From: Tepidicella baoligensis
GTDB taxonomy: Bacteria; Pseudomonadota; Gammaproteobacteria; Burkholderiales; Burkholderiaceae_C
NCBI RefSeq assembly: GCF_013432195.1
Contig: NZ_JACCDB010000002.1
Span: forward strand, 248,001-312,000
DNA: 64,000 nucleotides
Direction: 5' to 3'
Shown here one piece after another: positions 31,123 to 40,921 of this stretch (position 1 is the stretch's first letter; every line of letters begins with the position of its first letter). A program made the position numbers and the translations under genes. The notes beneath the pieces were generated by a model. That model worked only from the letters and a program-made list of their open reading frames with translations. It ran no database searches and was not told the origin of the DNA.

Positions 31123-31254
31123 GTCATTCTCCTTGCTGTATGCACAGTTTGACATTATTCCAGCATGGCCCGACCGTGGACATCACCGGGCCGGTTTGGT
31201 TACAGACGATTACCATTGTCACCACCATCGACCGCCTCTAAAGGAGACACCCGT
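31123..31254. promoter_or_regulatory. divergent promoter region
   Basis: These 132 bp separate the OmpA-like lipoprotein (minus) from the Nudix/MBL gene (plus) and must hold both promoters. A perfect TTGACA occurs on the plus strand at 31149-31154, but no good -10 stands at the right distance. AATAAT on the minus strand near 31155-31160 is a possible -10 for the lipoprotein gene. Confidence 0.35.
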
Positions 31255-32910
31255 ATGCCCCGCGCCTCGCAACAGCTGCACCCGCCTCAGACGCCCGCCC
31301 CTTTGCGCCCTGCCGCCACCGTGCTGCTGCTGCGCGACACGCCCGAGGGCCCGGAAGTGCTGATGACGCGCCGCGCCGCCGATGCCAGCTTTGCCCCTGG
31401 CGCCTACGTGTTCCCGGGCGGCGTGATCGATGCCAGCGATGCGCAAGGCCACGCCCTGGCCGACCACCGGCCCAGCCAGCGCGGCACACCGCTGACGCAG
31501 ACCATGGCCGCCATCCGCGAAAGCTTCGAGGAGCTGGGGATTTTGCTGGCCCGGCATGCCGATGGCCGCTGGGTGGGCGCCGACGATCTGGCGACGCTGC
31601 AACGGCGCGACCCCCTGCTGCCGCAATGCCAGGCCAGGGGGTGGCGACTCGCCGCCGATCAGGTGTACCTGCTGGCCCGCTGGATCACCGACCGCGATCT
31701 CCCCCGGCGCTTTGACGTGTCTTTCTTCGTGGCTCGCATGCCTGAAGGCCAAACGCCTGTGGCCGACGACCAGGAACAGTTCGAGCCGGTCTGGGTGCGC
31801 CCCGCCAGCGCCCTCGCGCGGCACGAACAGGGGAACTTCTTCATGGTTTATCCGACTGTGCGAACGCTGCAACGGCTGCAAGCTTACCCGACCGTACAAG
31901 CCATTCTGGACGCCTGCGCCGCCAGCGACGAACCGCTGTGGACCAGTTGTCCGCGCGCCGGCTGGCTGGCGGGCCAGGAGGCTCGCTACATGGAGCACGA
32001 AGCCCCGTTCGGGGAGCTGGCCCTCACCTGCCCAGACGGTCAGATGCTCCATCACCTCGACTGGCAGAGCGACCATCCGGTCGGCCTGCTGAAAAACGTC
32101 CAGCGCCTGACGGCGCCGAATCCCGGCTTCATGACCGGCCCCGGCACCAACAGTTACCTGGTCGGCGACCCCAGCAGCGGCCACATCGTGATCGACCCCG
32201 GCCCTGACGACGCCGCCCACGTGGAGCGTCTGTGGCGTGCGGCTGGCGGCGACATCCGCTTCATCGTCTGCACCCATTCACACCCTGACCATTCGCCCGG
32301 TGCTCCGTTGCTGCAGGAACTGTGCGCCCGCCACGGCCCACGCCCCCCGATCCTGGGCCTGCCCAGCGCCCCGTCGGCCCGCGCCCACAGCCATTTCATC
32401 CCCGACCGGGCGTTGGCCGACGGCGAACGGCTGACGCTGCGCAGCCGCGACGGGACCACCACCCACACCCTGCGCGTCCTGCACACACCGGGACACGCCG
32501 CCAACCACATCTGCTTGGTGCTGGAGGAGGACGGCCTGCTCTTCAGCGGCGACCACATCCTCAACGGCAGCACCACCGTCATCGACCCGCCGGACGGGCA
32601 CATGGACGCCTACCTGCGCTCACTGGACCGGCTCGACCAAGCCTGCGTCGAACACCAGATCGAATTCATCCTCCCCGCCCACGGCTATGTGCTGGGCCAG
32701 GCCCGGGAGGCGATCGCGCAACTCAAGCGGCATCGGCTGCAGCGGGAGGCCAAGATCGCCGCCGCCATGCGGACCTTGCCCCATGGCACGCACGACGACT
32801 GGGTACGACTGGCCTACGACGACGTGCCCGAACGCCTGTGGCCCGTGGCCAAACGCTCACTGCTGGCACATGTGGAGCGCATCCAAAGCCTGGGCGCGTT
32901 CAATCTGTGA
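31255..32910 (+). CDS. Nudix hydrolase / metallo-beta-lactamase fold fusion protein
   Basis: 551 residues from the ATG at 31255, with AAGGAG 8 bases upstream. The N-terminal 200 residues carry a Nudix fold: FPGGVIDASDA and the helix IRESFEELGIL at 87-97 (RExxEELG core). From about 285 a metallo-beta-lactamase domain follows: PGTNSYLVG, HSHPDH at 341-346, HTPGHAANH and FSGDHILNG, a complete set of metal ligands. The C-terminus resembles LACTB2-like hydrolases. Such a protein could clean up acyl-CoA- or nucleotide-type metabolites; the substrate is not evident. It converges on the next gene with an 11-bp overlap. Confidence 0.88.
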   Translation: MPRASQQLHPPQTPAPLRPAATVLLLRDTPEGPEVLMTRRAADASFAPGAYVFPGGVIDASDAQGHALADHRPSQRGTPLTQTMAAIRESFEELGILLARHADGRWVGADDLATLQRRDPLLPQCQARGWRLAADQVYLLARWITDRDLPRRFDVSFFVARMPEGQTPVADDQEQFEPVWVRPASALARHEQGNFFMVYPTVRTLQRLQAYPTVQAILDACAASDEPLWTSCPRAGWLAGQEARYMEHEAPFGELALTCPDGQMLHHLDWQSDHPVGLLKNVQRLTAPNPGFMTGPGTNSYLVGDPSSGHIVIDPGPDDAAHVERLWRAAGGDIRFIVCTHSHPDHSPGAPLLQELCARHGPRPPILGLPSAPSARAHSHFIPDRALADGERLTLRSRDGTTTHTLRVLHTPGHAANHICLVLEEDGLLFSGDHILNGSTTVIDPPDGHMDAYLRSLDRLDQACVEHQIEFILPAHGYVLGQAREAIAQLKRHRLQREAKIAAAMRTLPHGTHDDWVRLAYDDVPERLWPVAKRSLLAHVERIQSLGAFNL

Positions 32911-35431
32911 CCGCCTGCGCCTGGGCCTGCCACTGCAGCCAAGGGCGGTCACGCTGCCAGGTCTCGAGCCAACCGGCCAGCGCCTGTGCCGGCATGGGTC
33001 GGGCAATGGCGTAGCCCTGAGCCAGATAGCATCCCAGTCGCAGCAGCAACGCCGCGTGCTCAGGGGTTTCCACCCCCTCGGCCAGTAACGGCCGCTGGAA
33101 CGCGTGGGCCAGGAAGGTGACACTCTCCACGATATTACGGTCGTCCGGCTGGTCCAGCATGTTGATGACAAAGCCCTTGTCGATCTTGACCTGATCCAGC
33201 GGCAACGTGCGGAAGTACGCCAGCGAGGAATAGCCGGTGCCGAAATCGTCGAGTGCGAAACGAATGCCTTGGGCCCGGCAATCCACCATGACGCTGGCTG
33301 CCGTGGCCACATCGGCCAGCGCAACGGATTCGAGCACCTCCAGTTCGAGACACCGGGCCATGCCGGCAGGATGCGTCTGCAACAGCTCGGCGAGCCACTG
33401 GGAGAAGCCGGGGCGCAGCAACAGGCTGCCCTCGATATTGACACTCACACAAGCCCGTGCGCAGAGGCCGATGTCGTCGCTACGCCAGCAGGCGCGCTGG
33501 CGCAATGCGGTGTCGATCACCCACTGGCCGAGCTCGATTTCCAATGCCGTACCCGCGAGCTGCGACAGGAACTGGGCCGGCGGCAGCAGGCCCTGCTGGG
33601 GATGCTGCCAACGGATCAGCGCCTCCACGCCCAGCACCGTGCCCGTGCGCAGATCGACCTGCGGCTGGTAATACAGCACGAATTCACCGCGGCGCAGGGC
33701 TTCGCCCAGCCGCGACACCTGCTCCTGCTGGACCTGGAGTTCGCGGTCTTCGGTCATGTCGAACAGATGGAACCGATTGCGGCCCGCCTGCTTGGCCCGG
33801 TACATCGCCTGGTCGGCGTGGCGCAGCAGGGTATCCGGGTCGGCATCGTCCAGCGGGAACAGGGTCACACCCGCGCTGACCGATACCGTAGCCGTGTGCG
33901 CCTCGATCACCACCGGCTGCTGCACCTGCTCCATCAGGCGGCGCAGCACGCCCTCCCATTCGGTGTCGTTCTGCAAATCACCCAGCAGAATCACGAACTC
34001 GTCGCCCCCCAGACGGGCCAGCGTGTCCTCGGCACGCAAGCCCTGCTGCAGACGCCGGGTGATCTCGATGAGGAAGCGGTCTCCCATGGCATGCCCGAGA
34101 CGGTCGTTCACCGGTTTGAAATCATCAAGGTCCAGGTAACACACCGCCAGCAGGCGACCACTGCGCCGGGCCCTGGCCACGGCCCGGCTCATCCGCTCCT
34201 CCAACAGCCTCCGGTTCGGTACACCCGTGAGGGCATCGTAATGGGCCAGCCGGTCCAGCTCCCGCTGGTGGGCGCGCAACTTGACCCGGTCGGCCTGCAA
34301 ATGGGTTTTGGCCAGCATCAGCCGGCGCATATTCCATGCCAGCACCAGAGCCAATCCAAGCACCAGGACACCAGCCGCACCCAGGGTGACGATCCAGGGC
34401 CGGTAACGCTGCCACACGTCGCTCCACGCCGGGGGAGGCACCTTGTCAAAAGGCACCATGCGCAGATCCCGCATGGCCTGCTCGACGGAAGAATAGTCGG
34501 CCGGAATCGTGAATCCGTAGATGCCTGCCTGTTGGGCCGCGCGGTGGGAAGCTGGCAACGACAGCAACGCGGCAGCCACACGGTGCGACACCGCGGGTGG
34601 CACATGTGCTACCGCCAGGAAGGGCCACTCTGGATACAGCCGGGTGGACAAGCGGTAGGGAAAGCCGGGCATCTGCTGAGGATGGATGACCGTCAGATCA
34701 CCCGACTGCAGCCGTCCCTCTCGCTCCAGGTCCTCCAGCACACCGGTCCGCACAAAGCCTGCGTCGGCCCGACCCTCCAGTACCGCCGTGATCACCTGAT
34801 CCACCGGCTGGGCCGATTCGATGAAGGTGATCGAATCGAGCGCAATGCCGGCACGCACGAGTTCGGCAGCGGGGGCCATGTAGGTACCGAGAAATGTCTT
34901 GCCAGCGATTGCCACGCGACGGCCCCGCAGATCGCGCAACCCATTCAGGTCACCTCGGTCGGCACGCCGCACGATCACGCCACCGATCCCGTACACGGGG
35001 GTCTGGCCGTCGCGCAGCACCATCGAGGCCAGCGCACCGGAAAGCTTCCCGTATTCCCGAAGGATGACGTAGTGGGTAGGGTTGGTGAGCACGAAATCAA
35101 GCACGCCTTCGGCCATCGCCTGCTCGAGTTCGGTGTCGGTCAAGGCGCTGACACGCACCCGGTAACCGTCCAGATGCTGGCTTAGGTATTCACCGAGTTC
35201 GGCAAAACGCTCGTTGATGATGGGTTTCGGCCGAAAGGCGAACACACCCAAGGTGAGGACAGGACGGTGATCGCCTACGGGATCCTCAGCCTCGATAGGC
35301 ATGGCCCAGGCCTGGGCCGCCATTGCACCGGTCGCGAGCGCCCAAGACAGAACCGGCACCAGAAAGCATGCGACCCTCCACGCCAGGGGGCGGGGCTGGC
35401 GGCTTGGGAATGACCGACGGTACGAAGACAT
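32900..35431 (-). CDS. periplasmic-binding-domain GGDEF/EAL protein (cyclic di-GMP turnover)
   Basis: 843 residues from the ATG at 35431. Order: signal peptide/anchor at 1-38, a PhnD/SsuA-type binding domain at about 58-300 (LTLGVFAFRPKP, FVLTNPTHYVILREYG), a membrane segment at 346-367, a short coiled coil, GGDEF at about 392-555 and EAL at about 578-835. The catalytic RLGGDEFVILL (475-479) and the inhibitory RxxD (RAED 466-469) five residues before it are intact. EAL motifs GVEALIRWQ (603-605), DDFGTGYSS and VKIDKGF are also intact. Both synthesis and hydrolysis of cyclic di-GMP are therefore possible. The sensor part would read a periplasmic small ligand, perhaps phosphate- or phosphonate-like. 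Confidence 0.93.
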   Translation of the reverse strand: MSSYRRSFPSRQPRPLAWRVACFLVPVLSWALATGAMAAQAWAMPIEAEDPVGDHRPVLTLGVFAFRPKPIINERFAELGEYLSQHLDGYRVRVSALTDTELEQAMAEGVLDFVLTNPTHYVILREYGKLSGALASMVLRDGQTPVYGIGGVIVRRADRGDLNGLRDLRGRRVAIAGKTFLGTYMAPAAELVRAGIALDSITFIESAQPVDQVITAVLEGRADAGFVRTGVLEDLEREGRLQSGDLTVIHPQQMPGFPYRLSTRLYPEWPFLAVAHVPPAVSHRVAAALLSLPASHRAAQQAGIYGFTIPADYSSVEQAMRDLRMVPFDKVPPPAWSDVWQRYRPWIVTLGAAGVLVLGLALVLAWNMRRLMLAKTHLQADRVKLRAHQRELDRLAHYDALTGVPNRRLLEERMSRAVARARRSGRLLAVCYLDLDDFKPVNDRLGHAMGDRFLIEITRRLQQGLRAEDTLARLGGDEFVILLGDLQNDTEWEGVLRRLMEQVQQPVVIEAHTATVSVSAGVTLFPLDDADPDTLLRHADQAMYRAKQAGRNRFHLFDMTEDRELQVQQEQVSRLGEALRRGEFVLYYQPQVDLRTGTVLGVEALIRWQHPQQGLLPPAQFLSQLAGTALEIELGQWVIDTALRQRACWRSDDIGLCARACVSVNIEGSLLLRPGFSQWLAELLQTHPAGMARCLELEVLESVALADVATAASVMVDCRAQGIRFALDDFGTGYSSLAYFRTLPLDQVKIDKGFVINMLDQPDDRNIVESVTFLAHAFQRPLLAEGVETPEHAALLLRLGCYLAQGYAIARPMPAQALAGWLETWQRDRPWLQWQAQAQAVTD

Positions 35432-35490
35432 GCGGTGATCACGGTTGCTGAACGCCAATCATAGGCCCAAGAACCGCGCAAGGGTAAAGC

Positions 35491-35862
35491 GTGAAGTCTG
35501 CCGATACGCCGGATTCTGTGCATCGGGTTGCCCCGATGTGACCGCCATTTCTCTGGGCCGTGGGTCGCCCACACGGCTCGGTGCCACCTACCCGCCAGCT
35601 CGCCTTGCGGAACCACAAGGTCGGAAGAGGTTGCCCTGCTCCCGTGGCTGGCCTACTTGGTGTTGCTGCGCGTAGAGATTGCCCGTTTCACCCCCCACGC
35701 TCCTGCCGCCGCAGCGGATGGTTCATGGGGACTCGTCTCTGTTGCTCTGATCCTCACCTCACGGTGGACAGCCGTTAGCTGCTACGCCGTCCTGTGCAGT
35801 CCGGACGTTCCTCCAGCGCGCCCTTTCGGGCCTTGCGCCAGCGGCGGTCTGGCAGACTTCAC
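35491..35862 (-). ncRNA. rnpB: RNase P RNA (class A)
   Basis: Catalytic RNA that trims tRNA 5' ends with the protein RnpA. Read on the minus strand it opens GUGAAGUCUGCCAGAC and closes with CGUAUCGGCAGACUUCAC, so the two ends pair as helix P1. The conserved core is present: GGAGGAACGUCCGGACUGCA near the 5' end, AACAGAGA in the middle and ACAGAAUCCGGCG near the 3' end. Length of about 372 nt fits type A. Ends are set by the P1 pairing and may be off by a few bases. Open frames inside it are not genes. Confidence 0.96.
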
Positions 35863-35868
35863 ATGAAC

Positions 35869-35874
35869 ATTATC
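35869..35874 (-). promoter_or_regulatory. -10 element of rnpB
   Basis: GATAAT on the minus strand (5 of 6 to consensus) ends 6 bases before the inferred RNase P RNA 5' end. No clear -35 hexamer is visible at 16-18 bases upstream. Position agrees with a start at or next to 35862. Confidence 0.5.
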
Positions 35875-35935
35875 GCAGCTTGGCTCGACCATTGCGTATC
35901 ATCGACACCGATTGCTTGATGAACACGAGCCACAC

Positions 35936-37819
35936 ATGATCCGCCTGTCTGAACTCAAACTGCCACTGTCCGCCTTGCCGGTCGAGGAGCGCCGGGCCGC
36001 CGACGCGCCCGCCGAAACCGATGCCGACCGCCTGCCCACCCCACACCCGGTCGCGGCGTTGATCACCCTGGCCGCGCAGTCCCTGGGCGTGCCTGAAACA
36101 GCCATCGCCCACCTGCATGTGCACAAACGCAGCTTCGATGCGCGCCAACCCGAGTTGCTGGCCGTGTACATCGTGGACGTGACACTCGTGGACCCTGCTG
36201 CGGAGGCCGGCTTGCTGGCACGCCACGCGGGGCATCCGCACATTCAGCCCACGCCCGACATGCGCTGGCACCCACTGGCCCAGGCACCTGCCGGCTGGCC
36301 GACCCATGAGTGCCAACGCCCCGTGGTGGTGGGCCTGGGGCCGTGCGGCCTGTTCGCGGCGCTGGCGCTGGCCCAGATGGGGCTCAAGCCCATCGTGCTG
36401 GAACGGGGCAAACCGGTGCGCCAGCGCACGAAGGACACCTGGGGCCTGTGGCGCAAGAAAGTGCTCACGCCCGAATCCAACGTGCAATTCGGCGAAGGCG
36501 GCGCCGGCCTGTTTTCCGACGGCAAGCTCTACAGCCAGATCAAGGATCCGCGCTTTCTGGGCCGCAAGGTCATGCAGGAATTTGTGGACGCCGGCGCGCC
36601 GCCGGAAATCCTCTACATGGCCCACCCACACATTGGCACCTTCAAGCTGGTCAAAGTGGTGGAGGCGCTGCGCCAGAAGATCATCGCCCTGGGCGGCGAC
36701 ATCCGCTTCCAGCAGCGGGTCTGCGGCGTGCGGCTGGAGCCGGCGCCCGGCGAAACGGCCTTGGGCCACGGCTGGCCCGCCTGGCGCCTGCGCGGCCTGG
36801 AGGTGGAAGACCTGGCCAGCGGCGCGCACTTCGAGCTGGCCTGCGAGCGCGTGGTGCTGGCCCTCGGACACAGCTCGCGCGACACCTTTGCCTGGCTGCA
36901 CGACGCCGGGGTCTATCTGGAGCCGAAGCCTTTCTCCATTGGGGTGCGCATCGAACACCCGCAAAGCGTGATCGACCGCGCGCGCTGGGGCCGCCACGCC
37001 GGCCACCCGCTGCTGGGCGCTGCCGACTACAAGCTCGTGCACCACGCCAGCAATGGGCGCACGGTATACAGCTTTTGCATGTGCCCGGGGGGCACCGTGG
37101 TGGCGGCCACCAGCGAGCCCGGCCGTGTGGTCACCAACGGCATGAGCCAGTATTCGCGCAGTGAACGCAACGCCAACGCCGGCATGGTGGTCGGTATCGA
37201 TCCCCAAGATTACCCTCTGGACGCCGCGGCCTGGGAAGCCGCCTTCGGTCGCGAGGACGGCCCCCGTTACGCCGCCGAGGCCGCGTGGCTGCACGCCCAA
37301 GGCCGGGTGCATCCGCTGGCAGGCGTGGTGTACCAGCGCCAACTCGAAAGCCGTGCCTTCGAGGCCGGTGGGGGCGACTACGAAGCGCCCGGCCAGCTCG
37401 TCGGTGACTTCCTGGCCCAGCGCCCCTCGACCGCCTTCGGCACGGTCCTGCCCTCCTACAAACCGGGGGTCCGCCTGGGCGACTTGGCCGAGGTGCTGCC
37501 GGCCTACGCGGTGCAAGCCATGCGTGAAGCCCTGCCCGCCTTCGGCCGCAAGATCAAGGGCTACGACATGCCCGATGCGGTGATGACCGGCGTGGAGACC
37601 CGAACCTCCTCACCGCTGCGCATCACCCGAGGCGACGACTATCAAAGCCTGAACGTGCGCGGCCTGTACCCCGCTGGGGAAGGAGCCGGCTATGCCGGGG
37701 GCATCCTGTCGGCCGGGGTCGATGGCCTGCGGGTGGCCGAGGCACTGGCCTGCCATGCGCTGGGCGTACAGCCCCCGCCGCCCGACCGCGGGGCACGCGC
37801 CGCCCTGGCTTACGGATGA
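35936..37819 (+). CDS. FAD-dependent oxidoreductase, COG2509-like
   Basis: 627 residues from the ATG at 35936. An N-terminal domain of about 120 residues, which binds no obvious cofactor, precedes a dinucleotide loop PVVVGLGPCGLFAALAL at 129-145. Further family features are LERGKPVRQRTKDTW, NVQFGEGGAGLFSDGKLYS and a C-terminal FAD loop GLYPAGEGAGYAGGILSAGVDG. The family is widespread and uncharacterised, and is usually annotated as an FAD-dependent dehydrogenase. The end overlaps the convergent ModE-like gene by 10 bp. Confidence 0.88.
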   Translation: MIRLSELKLPLSALPVEERRAADAPAETDADRLPTPHPVAALITLAAQSLGVPETAIAHLHVHKRSFDARQPELLAVYIVDVTLVDPAAEAGLLARHAGHPHIQPTPDMRWHPLAQAPAGWPTHECQRPVVVGLGPCGLFAALALAQMGLKPIVLERGKPVRQRTKDTWGLWRKKVLTPESNVQFGEGGAGLFSDGKLYSQIKDPRFLGRKVMQEFVDAGAPPEILYMAHPHIGTFKLVKVVEALRQKIIALGGDIRFQQRVCGVRLEPAPGETALGHGWPAWRLRGLEVEDLASGAHFELACERVVLALGHSSRDTFAWLHDAGVYLEPKPFSIGVRIEHPQSVIDRARWGRHAGHPLLGAADYKLVHHASNGRTVYSFCMCPGGTVVAATSEPGRVVTNGMSQYSRSERNANAGMVVGIDPQDYPLDAAAWEAAFGREDGPRYAAEAAWLHAQGRVHPLAGVVYQRQLESRAFEAGGGDYEAPGQLVGDFLAQRPSTAFGTVLPSYKPGVRLGDLAEVLPAYAVQAMREALPAFGRKIKGYDMPDAVMTGVETRTSSPLRITRGDDYQSLNVRGLYPAGEGAGYAGGILSAGVDGLRVAEALACHALGVQPPPPDRGARAALAYG

Positions 37820-38190
37820 GCGTCTGGACGGATCAATGCCACCAATTCACTCAGCGGCGCCTCGATGGCTTGTTGCGCCTGCCGCTCGACTTCGCGGTAC
37901 AGCCGCAACACCTGCTGCCCCATGGGCGTCAGGGTGGTGCCGCCACCGGATGCCCCACCCCGCTGCTTGAGCACCAGCGGCTCGACGAAGTCGCGGTTCA
38001 TCGCCTCGACGAGCGACCACACACGCTGATAGCTCATGCCGAGCCGACGCCCGGCTTCGGCAATCGAGCCGGTTTCGGCAATGCCCTGCAACACATCGGC
38101 CTTGCCCGGCCCGATGGCCACCGCATGCTTGATCTGGAGGCGAAAGCGCGTGCGCGCCTCTAGAGGCGATACGTTCAAGCTGGGTTTCAT
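37810..38190 (-). CDS. short ModE-like molybdate regulator
   Basis: 126 residues with the LysR-type winged helix of ModE: GPGKADVLQGIAETGSIAEAGRRLGMSYQRVWSLVEAMNR, then the RGGASGGGTTLTPMG wing. The two molybdate-binding MOP/TOBE domains of full-length ModE (about 260 residues) are absent. It is divergent from modA, and a ModE-box-like palindrome (38230-38253) lies between. It probably represses or activates modABC. How molybdate is sensed is not clear from this protein alone. Confidence 0.85.
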   Translation of the reverse strand: MKPSLNVSPLEARTRFRLQIKHAVAIGPGKADVLQGIAETGSIAEAGRRLGMSYQRVWSLVEAMNRDFVEPLVLKQRGGASGGGTTLTPMGQQVLRLYREVERQAQQAIEAPLSELVALIRPDAHP

Positions 38191-38229
38191 GGCGCGATGA
38201 TATTCCCGACAAAAGGCTATTCAAAACAC

Positions 38230-38253
38230 CGATATCTTTTATTTAGAATATCG
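38230..38253. promoter_or_regulatory. ModE-box-like palindrome upstream of modA
   Basis: CGATAT at 38230-38235 and ATATCG at 38248-38253 form a perfect inverted repeat with a 12-base AT-rich spacer, 30 bp before the modA ATG and 40 bp before the modE-like ATG. The E. coli ModE box has the same layout (CGnTATAT-type arms around an AT-rich centre). It is the most AT-rich spot of the region. Confidence 0.6.
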
Positions 38254-38283
38254 AAGCCTGTTCGTCTTCCAGCCCGTTTCCAC

Positions 38284-39075
38284 ATGCATACCCGTCGTCA
38301 CTTTATGCTCCCGCTGCTGGCTGCGCTGAGCGTGTATGCAGCCTCCACACATTCCCATGCTCAAGCGGCACCCGTTCCCACGCTGGCCGCTGCATCAGAT
38401 TTGAAATTCGCCATCGAAGAGGTGGCCGAACGGTTCACACAGGCCACCGGGCAACGACTGCGTCTCGTCTTTGGCTCGTCGGGCAATTTTTACTCCCAAA
38501 TACTGCAAGGAGCCCCATTTCACCTGTTCATGTCGGCCGACGAGGACTTCGTGTTCAAGCTGGCCGATGCGGGCAAAACCCTGGACAGAGGACAACTCTA
38601 TGCCTATGGTCGAATCGGGATCATGGTGCCCAAAGGCTCATCTCTGAAAGCCGACGGCACGCTCAAAGATCTTGCTGAGGCCCTTCAAGACGGCCGACTC
38701 AAAAAGTTTGCCATTGCCAACCCCGATCATGCGCCTTACGGCATGCGGGCTCGAGAGGCTTTGCAATCCCAGGGCCTCTGGGAGGCCATCGTCCCGAAAC
38801 TGGTCTATGGCGAAAACATTTCGCAGGCGGCCCAATTCGCCACCTCTGGCGCGACCGATGGCGGCATCATTGCCTACTCATTGGCCTTATCACCACAGGT
38901 GGCCAGACTGGGGGATTTCGCCCTGATTCCAGAAAACTGGCACAAACGCCTGGCGCAACGCATGGTGCTGACCAAAGACGCCCCCCAAACCGCTCGCGAC
39001 TTTTATGCATACCTCTCCACGCCCGAGGCACAAGCCATCATGACGAAATATGGCTTCGAGATGCCCAGGCAGTAA
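38284..39075 (+). CDS. modA: molybdate ABC transporter substrate-binding protein
   Basis: Periplasmic binding protein for molybdate or tungstate. 263 residues from the ATG at 38284. The signal peptide spans about 1-33 (HFMLPLLAALSVYAASTHSHAQA). Seen: LAAASDLKFAIEEVA, FGSSGNFYSQILQGAPFHLFMSADEDF (oxyanion-binding serines), AIANPDHAPYGMRAREAL and GIIAYSLAL. It begins the modABC operon; modB follows 14 bp behind. Family members are also annotated simply as the molybdate-binding protein. Confidence 0.95.
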   Translation: MHTRRHFMLPLLAALSVYAASTHSHAQAAPVPTLAAASDLKFAIEEVAERFTQATGQRLRLVFGSSGNFYSQILQGAPFHLFMSADEDFVFKLADAGKTLDRGQLYAYGRIGIMVPKGSSLKADGTLKDLAEALQDGRLKKFAIANPDHAPYGMRAREALQSQGLWEAIVPKLVYGENISQAAQFATSGATDGGIIAYSLALSPQVARLGDFALIPENWHKRLAQRMVLTKDAPQTARDFYAYLSTPEAQAIMTKYGFEMPRQ

Positions 39076-39089
39076 TCCAGCCTGAAACC

Positions 39090-39755
39090 ATGGACTGGCA
39101 AGCCCTTCGCCTCTCCCTGGAGCTGGCAACCGTCACGCTGCTGGTGCTCCTGCCTATCGGTCTGTGGATGGGGCGCTGGCTGGCGTACACCTCGTTCAAA
39201 GGCAAAGCCCTGGTCGAAGCCGCCGTGGTGCTGCCTCTGGTGCTGCCCCCGACCGTCTTGGGTTACTACCTGCTGGTCTCCATGGGCGCTGGCTCTCCCT
39301 TGGGCCGCTGGTTGCTCGACACCTTCGACATCCGGCTGACCTTCAACTTCTTGGGCCTGCTGATCGCTTCGGTGGTGTTCAACATTCCTTTCATGGTGCA
39401 ACCCATCCAGCGCGCCTTCGAGGCCATCCCTGCCAACCTCGGGGAAGCGGCAGCCGTCAGCGGGCTGAACGGCTGGCAGACCTTGATCCGTGTCGAGTTG
39501 CCCCTGGTCTGGCCTGGTCTGCTGTCAGCCATGGTGCTGACCTTCGTACACACCCTGGGAGAATTCGGCGTGGTGCTGATGGTGGGCGGGAGCATCCCCG
39601 GAGAAACCAAGACCATCGCGATCAGCATTTACGACAAGGTACAGGCCTTCGATCTCGCGAGTGCAGACCAAATGGCCCTGTTTCTGCTGCTGATGTCGCT
39701 GACAGCCGTGGCAGCATCGTTCTTTGCCACGGCACGGATGATCAGGACGCGATGA
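39090..39755 (+). CDS. modB: molybdate ABC transporter permease
   Basis: Inner-membrane channel subunit. 221 residues with five or six hydrophobic segments. The permease EAA-type loop is seen at EAAAVSGLNGWQTLIRVELPLVWPG, followed by HTLGEFGVVLMVGG and IPGETKTIAISIYD, typical of ModB. The stop overlaps the modC start by 4 bases (ATGA). Confidence 0.96.
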   Translation: MDWQALRLSLELATVTLLVLLPIGLWMGRWLAYTSFKGKALVEAAVVLPLVLPPTVLGYYLLVSMGAGSPLGRWLLDTFDIRLTFNFLGLLIASVVFNIPFMVQPIQRAFEAIPANLGEAAAVSGLNGWQTLIRVELPLVWPGLLSAMVLTFVHTLGEFGVVLMVGGSIPGETKTIAISIYDKVQAFDLASADQMALFLLLMSLTAVAASFFATARMIRTR

Positions 39756-40921
39756 AGCCGCCAGAGACATTGCCCGACGCTGCCTTGCAGGTCCAGGTCG
39801 AGCAGGACTGGCCTATGCCCTTGCATGGCCAGTTTGCTTGCCAGCCAAGGGAATTGCTGGCGCTGGTGGGGCCATCCGGGGCAGGGAAAACTTCGATGCT
39901 CCGGTGCTTGGCCGGCTTGATGCGACCCGCACGAGGGCGGATCACCGTAGGCCACACGACCTGGCTGGACACCGAGCGCGGCATCTGCCTGCCGCCCCAG
40001 CAACGGCACGTGGGTCTGGTGTTCCAGAACTATGCGCTCATGCCCCATCTGAACGCGTTGGACAACGTGGCCTTGTCGTTGTTGCACCTGCCCGCCCGTG
40101 AGCGGCGCGCGAAAGCCGCCCACTGGCTCGATCATGTGCGGCTGTCGGCCGATCAGCAAGCCCGCCGGCCCGCCCACCTCTCAGGCGGACAGCAGCAGCG
40201 CGTCGCGGTGGCTCGTGCGCTCGCGCGCGAGCCACGGCTCCTCCTGCTCGACGAGCCTTTCTCGGCCGTGGATCAGATGAACCGGCAAGGGCTGTACGAC
40301 CTGCTGGCCGATTTGCGACAAGAGCTGCACATTCCCATCGTGCTCGTGACCCACGACCTGACCGAAGCGCGCCACTTGGCCGACCAGTTGGTGGTGATGG
40401 ATGCAGGCCAGGTGCTGCAGCAGGGCACACCCGCACGGGTTTACCGCTCGCCGCGCAACGCCCGGGTGGCCGATTTGGTCGGCGTGCAAAACCGTTTCCG
40501 TGGCCGCTGGATCGGGCCGCAGTCGCCGCAGGACGAGGCCGACCGCGCCGGCTGGCTGCAATGGCTCACGCCCGACGGGCACCCGACGCATGTGCATCTG
40601 CGGGTGCGCGACAAACAGCGACTCGGCTTCGGCCAAGACGTGAGCTGGATCATCCAGGGCGACGGCCTACACCTGGGGCAAGAAATGCCAACCGACCCCG
40701 AAGGACCGGCGTTGGGTGAAGTCACGCTGCAGACCACGGTGACCGCGGTGCGCAACCTCGGCGAAACCACCCTCGCCGACATGCGGGTGGACGGCTTGGC
40801 TGGCGTGGCGCTGCGCATCGCACGCTCCGGACCGCACCGGCAGGGGTTGACCCAGGGCCAGTCGCTGTCGGTGCGGCTGGACTGCGACTGGGTCCATGTG
40901 ATGCCAAGCCGGACCGGCTGA
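39752..40921 (+). CDS. modC: molybdate ABC transporter ATP-binding protein
   Basis: Cytoplasmic ATPase of the transporter. 389 residues from the ATG at 39752. Walker A GPSGAGKTS at 40-48, Q-loop VFQNYALMPHL, signature LSGGQQQRVAVARAL, Walker B LLLLDEPFSAVD and the H-loop VTHD. The last 150 residues form a TOBE-like domain, expected to bind molybdate for feedback control. This is the only MOP/TOBE-type domain I could see in the locus. Confidence 0.95.
   Translation: MKPPETLPDAALQVQVEQDWPMPLHGQFACQPRELLALVGPSGAGKTSMLRCLAGLMRPARGRITVGHTTWLDTERGICLPPQQRHVGLVFQNYALMPHLNALDNVALSLLHLPARERRAKAAHWLDHVRLSADQQARRPAHLSGGQQQRVAVARALAREPRLLLLDEPFSAVDQMNRQGLYDLLADLRQELHIPIVLVTHDLTEARHLADQLVVMDAGQVLQQGTPARVYRSPRNARVADLVGVQNRFRGRWIGPQSPQDEADRAGWLQWLTPDGHPTHVHLRVRDKQRLGFGQDVSWIIQGDGLHLGQEMPTDPEGPALGEVTLQTTVTAVRNLGETTLADMRVDGLAGVALRIARSGPHRQGLTQGQSLSVRLDCDWVHVMPSRTG

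Follow-up and report, generated by a model that had tools for sequence, protein, structure and literature searches.

A predicted membrane protein of Tepidicella baoligensis joins a TtrS-related binding domain to GGDEF and EAL domains and may couple a small periplasmic anion to cyclic di-GMP

The window analysed here is a stretch of 64,000 nucleotides from Tepidicella baoligensis (assembly GCF_013432195.1, contig NZ_JACCDB010000002.1, positions 248,001–312,000). An open reading frame (ORF) on its minus strand, at window positions 32900–35431, encodes an 843-residue protein in which a binding domain of Pfam family PF12974 is followed by a transmembrane (TM) helix, a GGDEF domain and an EAL domain. 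This fused architecture of a sensor and cyclic di-GMP (c-di-GMP) enzyme domains is real and recurs in relatives. We propose, with confidence that falls just short of even, that the protein is a one-component transmembrane switch through which a small anion in the periplasm (most likely a sulfur oxyanion) acts on c-di-GMP. Nearly all of the doubt about this explanation falls on the ligand, and the least certain points are the ligand and which of the two activities dominates. The features of the gene are as follows.

32900..35431, minus strand: membrane protein of 843 aa, with likely export signal, TtrS/PhnD-type binding domain, TM helix, GGDEF and EAL domains
35303..35431, minus strand: residues 1–43, likely export signal made up of a basic N-terminus and a hydrophobic stretch (hydropathy and sequence)
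34502..35248, minus strand: residues 62–310, PF12974 periplasmic binding domain, predicted to be TtrS-related (Pfam, 138 bits)
34880..34894, minus strand: residues 180–184, FLGTY, where the PhnD of the same genome keeps STSGH (alignment)
34733..34750, minus strand: residues 228–233, RTGVLE; R228 in 60/60 aligned sensors, G230 replaced by Cys in Escherichia coli TtrS
34622..34657, minus strand: residues 259–270, YRLSTRLYPEWP; S262 and W269 in 60/60 sensors, Y259 replaced by Cys in E. coli TtrS
34334..34390, minus strand: residues 348–366, single TM helix (hydropathy)
33773..34246, minus strand: residues 396–553, GGDEF domain, with GGDEF at 475–479 and RxxD at 466–469 intact (Pfam and motifs)
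32996..33712, minus strand: residues 574–812, EAL domain, eight of eight catalytic positions (Pfam and alignment)

The ORF given in the first-pass annotation of this DNA stands, with an ATG at 35431 and a stop codon at 32900–32902; an alternative TTG start, nine codons upstream of the ATG, is also open. The match to PF12974 (named Phosphonate-bd) lies far above its cut-off of 27 bits, and those to GGDEF (167 bits) and EAL (225 bits) exceed their curated cut-offs. The Pfam scan of the 843-residue protein contained no kinase domain, and SBP_bac_3, the RmcA-type sensor domain, had no match in it at 1e-3. Hydropathy maxima are located near residue 20 and at 344–355. Because of the N-terminal hydrophobic stretch and the one TM helix, the binding domain should be located in the periplasm. 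The earlier proposal that a ligand-binding domain takes the place of PAS or CHASE as input is supported.

Both catalytic cores are intact by motif, as had been claimed. The RxxD site, whose role is product inhibition of the cyclase, lies five residues ahead of the GGDEF motif, and the key positions of the GGDEF domain read D-N-D-R-D-GGDEF by alignment. The EAL domain has the motif EALIRW at 603–608 and the aligned set E-N-E-D-D-K-E-Q. We take these to be the catalytic positions recognized in the literature on GGDEF and EAL domains. Motifs alone do not prove activity of either domain; judged by them, the pair may both make and break c-di-GMP. The accompanying idea, that a tandem protein usually retains just one activity, fails in this genome, where both motif sets are retained in 10 of the 15 tandem GGDEF–EAL proteins (one of the 15, L106, having its EAL divided over two frames). 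Two intact cores are therefore ordinary here, and their rarity was rejected, by motif, for this genome. L106 itself (around G000:C46:49361–49849) has EAL motifs in two overlapping frames and a GGDEF that reads GADEF; it is frameshifted or mis-assembled.

Judged by sequence comparison, the sensor is a predicted relative of TtrS and not a transporter PhnD. The NCBIfam TtrS model NF040750 matches residues 60–395 with 103 bits against a cut-off of 750, so the protein is not TtrS, yet its sensor is related, and this match speaks against phosphonate sensing. A tblastn search of plasmids returned genes annotated ttrS with 26% identity over 96% of the sensor (1e-13). With at most three candidates scored per genome, none of 369 class-sample genomes held a TtrS over the cut-off, and an annotated plasmid ttrS was therefore taken for comparison. 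This E. coli plasmid TtrS is located between ttrBCA and ttrR, scores 961 bits to NF040750 and groups within the sensor tree. Tetrathionate is regarded as the signal that TtrS senses, and a response to thiosulfate has been shown for ThsS, in both cases via PhnD-like domains (PMC5408782 and PMC11293645, in the portions available); the ThsS sequence is not in our comparison.

A query with the sensor region at 1e-20 matched 31 of 299 family genomes and 77 of the 369 class-sample genomes, and the window sensor is the single such match in its own genome. As the relatives were chosen by similarity to the window sensor (E 1e-20, best loci), the kinase, GGDEF and Cys-pair fractions given below are not values for the whole family. 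Among 61 rows scanned, window included, PF12974 was present in 61, HisKA in 27, GGDEF in 31, EAL in 17 and PAS in many, with some ORFs cut at locus ends and one gene entered twice (L006 and L009). The 60 distinct rows, which are also the basis of the pocket counts, comprise 27 kinases, 14 GGDEF proteins, 16 GGDEF–EAL proteins and 3 unassigned proteins whose ORFs are truncated at the ends of the loci. That 57 of 60 have a kinase or GGDEF output, the others being the truncated ORFs, is at odds with the suggestion that the domain senses an imported nutrient such as a phosphonate. On a sensor tree of the 'quick' kind, the distribution of kinase and c-di-GMP outputs requires at least 10 changes, and the branch of the window protein holds 31 rows with a support of 99 (starred). 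By these comparisons, the sensor appears as a module passed from one signalling output to another, repeatedly so between kinase and c-di-GMP. Weaker matches with open frames below 400 aa (15 in the class sample and 1 among the family genomes, some of them at contig ends or with stops) seem to include free-standing relatives. A sensor relative at 40% identity is also found, in one and the same sequence, on two IMG/VR contigs classed as viral (L077/L078), possibly bacterial sequence.

The kinase part of the family is tied to sulfur oxyanions by gene context. Cys230 and Cys259 occur together in 10 of the 60 relatives, never one alone, and all 10 are kinases; neither residue is present in any of the 30 GGDEF-bearing members. 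The Cys-pair branch unites these 10 with TtrS and six further rows from the plasmid collection (17 rows, support 90, not starred). Eight of the 10 were viewed in wide stretches (all except L027 and L035, which nearly duplicate L026 and L034), and all eight lie near genes for TtrABC-like proteins (4) or TsdA-like cytochromes (4), the TsdA-like assignments in L134 and L136 being based on partial-length similarity of 40–45% to the L118/L119 cytochromes. The same holds for four of five annotated plasmid Cys-pair kinases, L120 being the exception: L117 has ttrBCA beside a TtrS-type kinase, L121 has TtrABC-like genes (TtrA 905 bits on a cut ORF; cut-off 1750), and L118 and L119 have TsdA-like cytochromes (PF21342, 40 and 54 bits). 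The Aeromonas and Photobacterium plasmid-collection rows (L122, L123) carry no annotation and were left out of the neighbour counts. No paper on a TtrS Cys pair was found by title among the open-access matches listed, and the mentions of cysteine in the available text of PMC5408782 are unrelated to one.

Kinases lacking the pair were examined for 14 of 17 cases, in 12 fetched stretches (two of only 6–7 kb), in L073 for L015 (10 kb) and in L007 (15.9 kb), leaving out L020, L044 and L062. Three of the 14 adjoin sox genes (SoxA 226–246 bits; SoxY, SoxZ, SoxX and SoxB in part), and two more of these TtrS-like kinases (L142:5216–7069 and L143:8598–10619) adjoin a protein that combines a cyclic-nucleotide-binding domain with a rhodanese domain. 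A 193-residue ORF with four CxxCH motifs adjoins a TtrS-like kinase (L140:8913–9491), and on an Ideonella dechloratans plasmid (L119:957–7704) a PAS-type GGDEF–EAL gene is located directly before the TsdA-like cytochrome and TtrS-like kinase genes, an arrangement that may connect c-di-GMP with thiosulfate metabolism locally.

The putative ligand pocket also bears on the phosphonate assignment. In both PhnD and AioX the phosphoryl group is surrounded by two Ser, one His and two Tyr (PMC5908839, in the part consulted). The free PhnD of the Tepidicella genome, which adjoins an ORF reading as an ABC ATPase, keeps S-T-S-G-H and a His–Asp motif. Where it has S-T-S-G-H the window protein has F-L-G-T-Y, and its S-T-S and H align to F180-L181-G182 and V210. 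Thus the annotated PhnD-like periplasmic domain is present as a PF12974 domain, but it is related to TtrS and the Ser/His phosphoryl signature is gone. Column 228 is Asp in the genome's PhnD and Arg in all 60 aligned sensors; this inversion of charge suggests, from the alignment, a fully ionised anion as ligand. Conservation among the 60 is also high at S262 and W269 (60 each), P118 (57), Y266 (56), T263 (54) and N117 (52). A sensor that binds an alkylphosphonate as PhnD does would suit the Pfam name of the domain and the presence of PtxB and PhnD among the profile and fold matches. We nevertheless regard it as very unlikely given the missing signature and the Arg at column 228, together with the kinase relatives that adjoin tetrathionate and thiosulfate genes. 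The C–P lyase protein PhnJ was not found in the genome (other phosphonate enzymes were not sought) and is not enriched in genomes that carry the sensor (4/31 versus 27/268, p = 0.54).

Fold comparisons are of limited use here. The AlphaFold model of the sensor is poor (pLDDT 57, built from 4 sequences), and pocket geometry was therefore not used. PtxB is the best solved relative of the PF12974-type family profile (2.5e-18). Searches with the sensor model of pLDDT 57 matched PtxB (5lv1; Z 14.1, rmsd 9.9, 203 aligned), AioX (8ed5; Z 13.0, rmsd 9.8, 196 aligned), XAC2383 (5ub3; Z 12.9, rmsd 8.8, 211 aligned) and PhnD (3quj; Z 11.0, rmsd 10.4, 191 aligned), with ArrX also among the matches.

Several observations weigh against a sulfur oxyanion as the ligand of the window protein. 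Besides the poor model, the window protein lacks the TtrS Cys pair, having G230 and Y259 at these positions. R228 is replaced by Pro in E. coli TtrS and in the Aeromonas and Photobacterium rows, so that pockets differ within the wider group. Nine of the 14 kinases without the Cys pair lack any neighbour of the sox, ttr, tsd or rhodanese type, one of these nine being near a sulfate permease. Sulfur genes occur in none of 14 loci of the window's branch, kinases included (the 64-kb window and 13 stretches of 6–19 kb), and in none of nine c-di-GMP-type stretches (the window, L006/L068, L069–L072 and L074–L076). The genome does carry SoxB (896 bits), but among the 299 family genomes SoxB is not enriched in carriers of the sensor (18/31 versus 146/268, p = 0.85), nor is it when Cys-pair carriers are set aside (15/21 versus 149/278, p = 0.17; G003, a match without a locus, was placed with the non-Cys carriers). 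Because there is no co-occurrence signal, we record no more than the presence of SoxB for the window genome and, because none of the 14 loci of its branch shows sulfur genes, we infer the ligand class from kinship alone. The direction of the signal and the function of both catalytic sites are likewise presumed.

The lack of sulfur neighbours in the window's branch and of SoxB enrichment would also suit the same switch with another small anion or organic acid as ligand, such as phosphite, arsenate, a sulfonate, a carboxylate or a nucleotide; a TtrS-like fold indicates the kind of sensor and not the molecule. Solved PF12974-type relatives bind, according to the titles of their structures, phosphite, hypophosphite, arsenite or arsenate, and XAC2383 has an ATP-bound entry. 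A different ligand is a serious possibility, although one we would place clearly below even; kinases with the same R228, S262 and W269 repeatedly adjoin sulfur-oxyanion genes. A more drastic option is that ligand binding has been lost and that the GGDEF–EAL enzyme is constitutive, controlled by dimerisation or driven by a partner protein. At position 210 the window protein has Val, whereas the most frequent residue there is His (23 of 59 relatives), the pocket model is unreliable, and XAC2383–XAC2382, by title, shows such a receptor acting as a separate protein. We consider this option improbable, because R228, S262 and W269 are retained and because the sensor protein shares 94% identity with that of a congener, against 89% for the DNA of this region, which suggests constraint.

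In the sulfur-oxyanion switch that we favor, the TtrS-type periplasmic domain would close around its ligand, a small anion that is most likely a sulfur oxyanion (thiosulfate, for example), and closure would pass through the one TM helix to the cytoplasmic GGDEF–EAL pair. The balance of the two domains would then shift, with RxxD product inhibition acting on the cyclase, and an outside metabolite would thereby set the c-di-GMP level. A fuller version, in which a genome with thiosulfate-oxidation genes reads outside thiosulfate or polythionate into c-di-GMP via its sole TtrS-type sensor and so sets biofilm formation or motility, with repeated moves between outputs and a Cys pair that marks the TtrABC/TsdA branch, is conceivable, but we hold it to be doubtful rather than probable.

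The locus of the gene varies among relatives. The genome (2.87 Mb in 47 contigs) has the sensor gene between a convergent gene for a Nudix domain fused to a metallo-beta-lactamase domain (31165–32910, plus strand), which its 3′ end overlaps by 11 bases, and the gene for RNase P RNA, which ends 57 bases before the ATG.

35489..35860, minus strand: rnpB, RNase P RNA class A (184 bits)

Nothing resembling a promoter or terminator turned up in a consensus scan of 32700–36000. Two congeners were searched: G203 (the source of the identities given above) carries the gene in the corresponding position, and G106 is without it, 24 bases separating the two flanking matches. Two genomes of another genus (G073 and G257) have a sensor–GGDEF orthologue without EAL between the metallo-beta-lactamase gene and rnpB, with an additional second GGDEF-like stretch in opposite orientation (41–44% identity, tblastn); at this locus only the metallo-beta-lactamase half of the Nudix fusion aligns. 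In G001 a GGDEF gene is present and the sensor absent. Beside rnpB, relatives may thus have sensor–GGDEF–EAL, sensor–GGDEF plus another GGDEF, another GGDEF alone or nothing, and parts have therefore been gained or lost there. By sequence, this suggests that a cyclase is the output common to both genera and that EAL comes and goes. A plasmid search with 432 bases from the 5′ end of the gene gave no match.

For the remainder of the window, four neighbouring proteins were scanned by Pfam and the others were assessed visually in the ORF list. By such visual assessment, ModE-like and ModABC-like molybdate genes lie at 37810–40921, following a gene for an FAD-dependent protein. Queries with TtrA, TtrB, TsdA-like, SoxA, SoxX, SoxY and SoxB gave no match within the 64 kb.

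Periplasmic binding domains on c-di-GMP enzymes are already known from RmcA and CdgH, and the window protein is not categorically new. RmcA carries PAS domains in addition to GGDEF and EAL. In Pseudomonas aeruginosa its sensor of L-arginine is an SBP_bac_3 domain (PMC8846402, in part), so that it resembles the window protein in having a periplasmic binding domain on a c-di-GMP enzyme but differs in the family of that domain. CdgH of Vibrio cholerae has tandem amino-acid-binding periplasmic domains on a cyclase, and no EAL is named for it in the portion of the source at hand (PMC5431781). TtrS and ThsS share with the window protein a PF12974-type periplasmic sensor followed by a TM segment and a cytoplasmic output. 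In TtrS this output is a kinase, whereas here it is GGDEF–EAL; TtrS of the E. coli plasmid also differs in its Cys pair and in its location beside ttrBCA.

Likeness also extends to separate receptors. XAC2383–XAC2382 of Xanthomonas citri is reportedly, by the title of Teixeira 2018, a periplasmic receptor with a diguanylate cyclase. It thus ties a PF12974 receptor to c-di-GMP synthesis, as in the window, but with two separate proteins in place of one polypeptide that includes EAL. XAC2383 is listed as PF12974 in the part of PMC10942540 available. AioX and ArrX are PhnD-fold oxyanion receptors used for signalling and not for transport (PMC5908839, same part); they are free periplasmic proteins with a Ser/Ser/His/Tyr pocket, whereas the window sensor is fused and lacks at least the Ser and His positions. 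A 2022 review states, in its available portion, that SBP_bac_3 was the sole one of 27 families of the periplasmic binding protein clan to have been examined in c-di-GMP networks (PMC8846402); XAC2383, with its separate cyclase, is a further case. We found no study of a fused PF12974–c-di-GMP sensor subfamily, a weak negative as only open-access literature was covered. There, 'phosphonate-bd' with 'diguanylate cyclase' gave nothing, and no title among the matches listed names a fused thiosulfate or tetrathionate sensor–diguanylate cyclase.

The window protein cautions against taking the Pfam label 'phosphonate' as the ligand, and the Cys-pair split offers a cheap sequence marker with which to sort PF12974 sensors that carry this label in databases. 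Only a small number of periplasmic inputs have been described for c-di-GMP enzymes. If the proposed switch is correct, a compound of the sulfur cycle would be a defined chemical signal feeding into c-di-GMP, without a two-component system.

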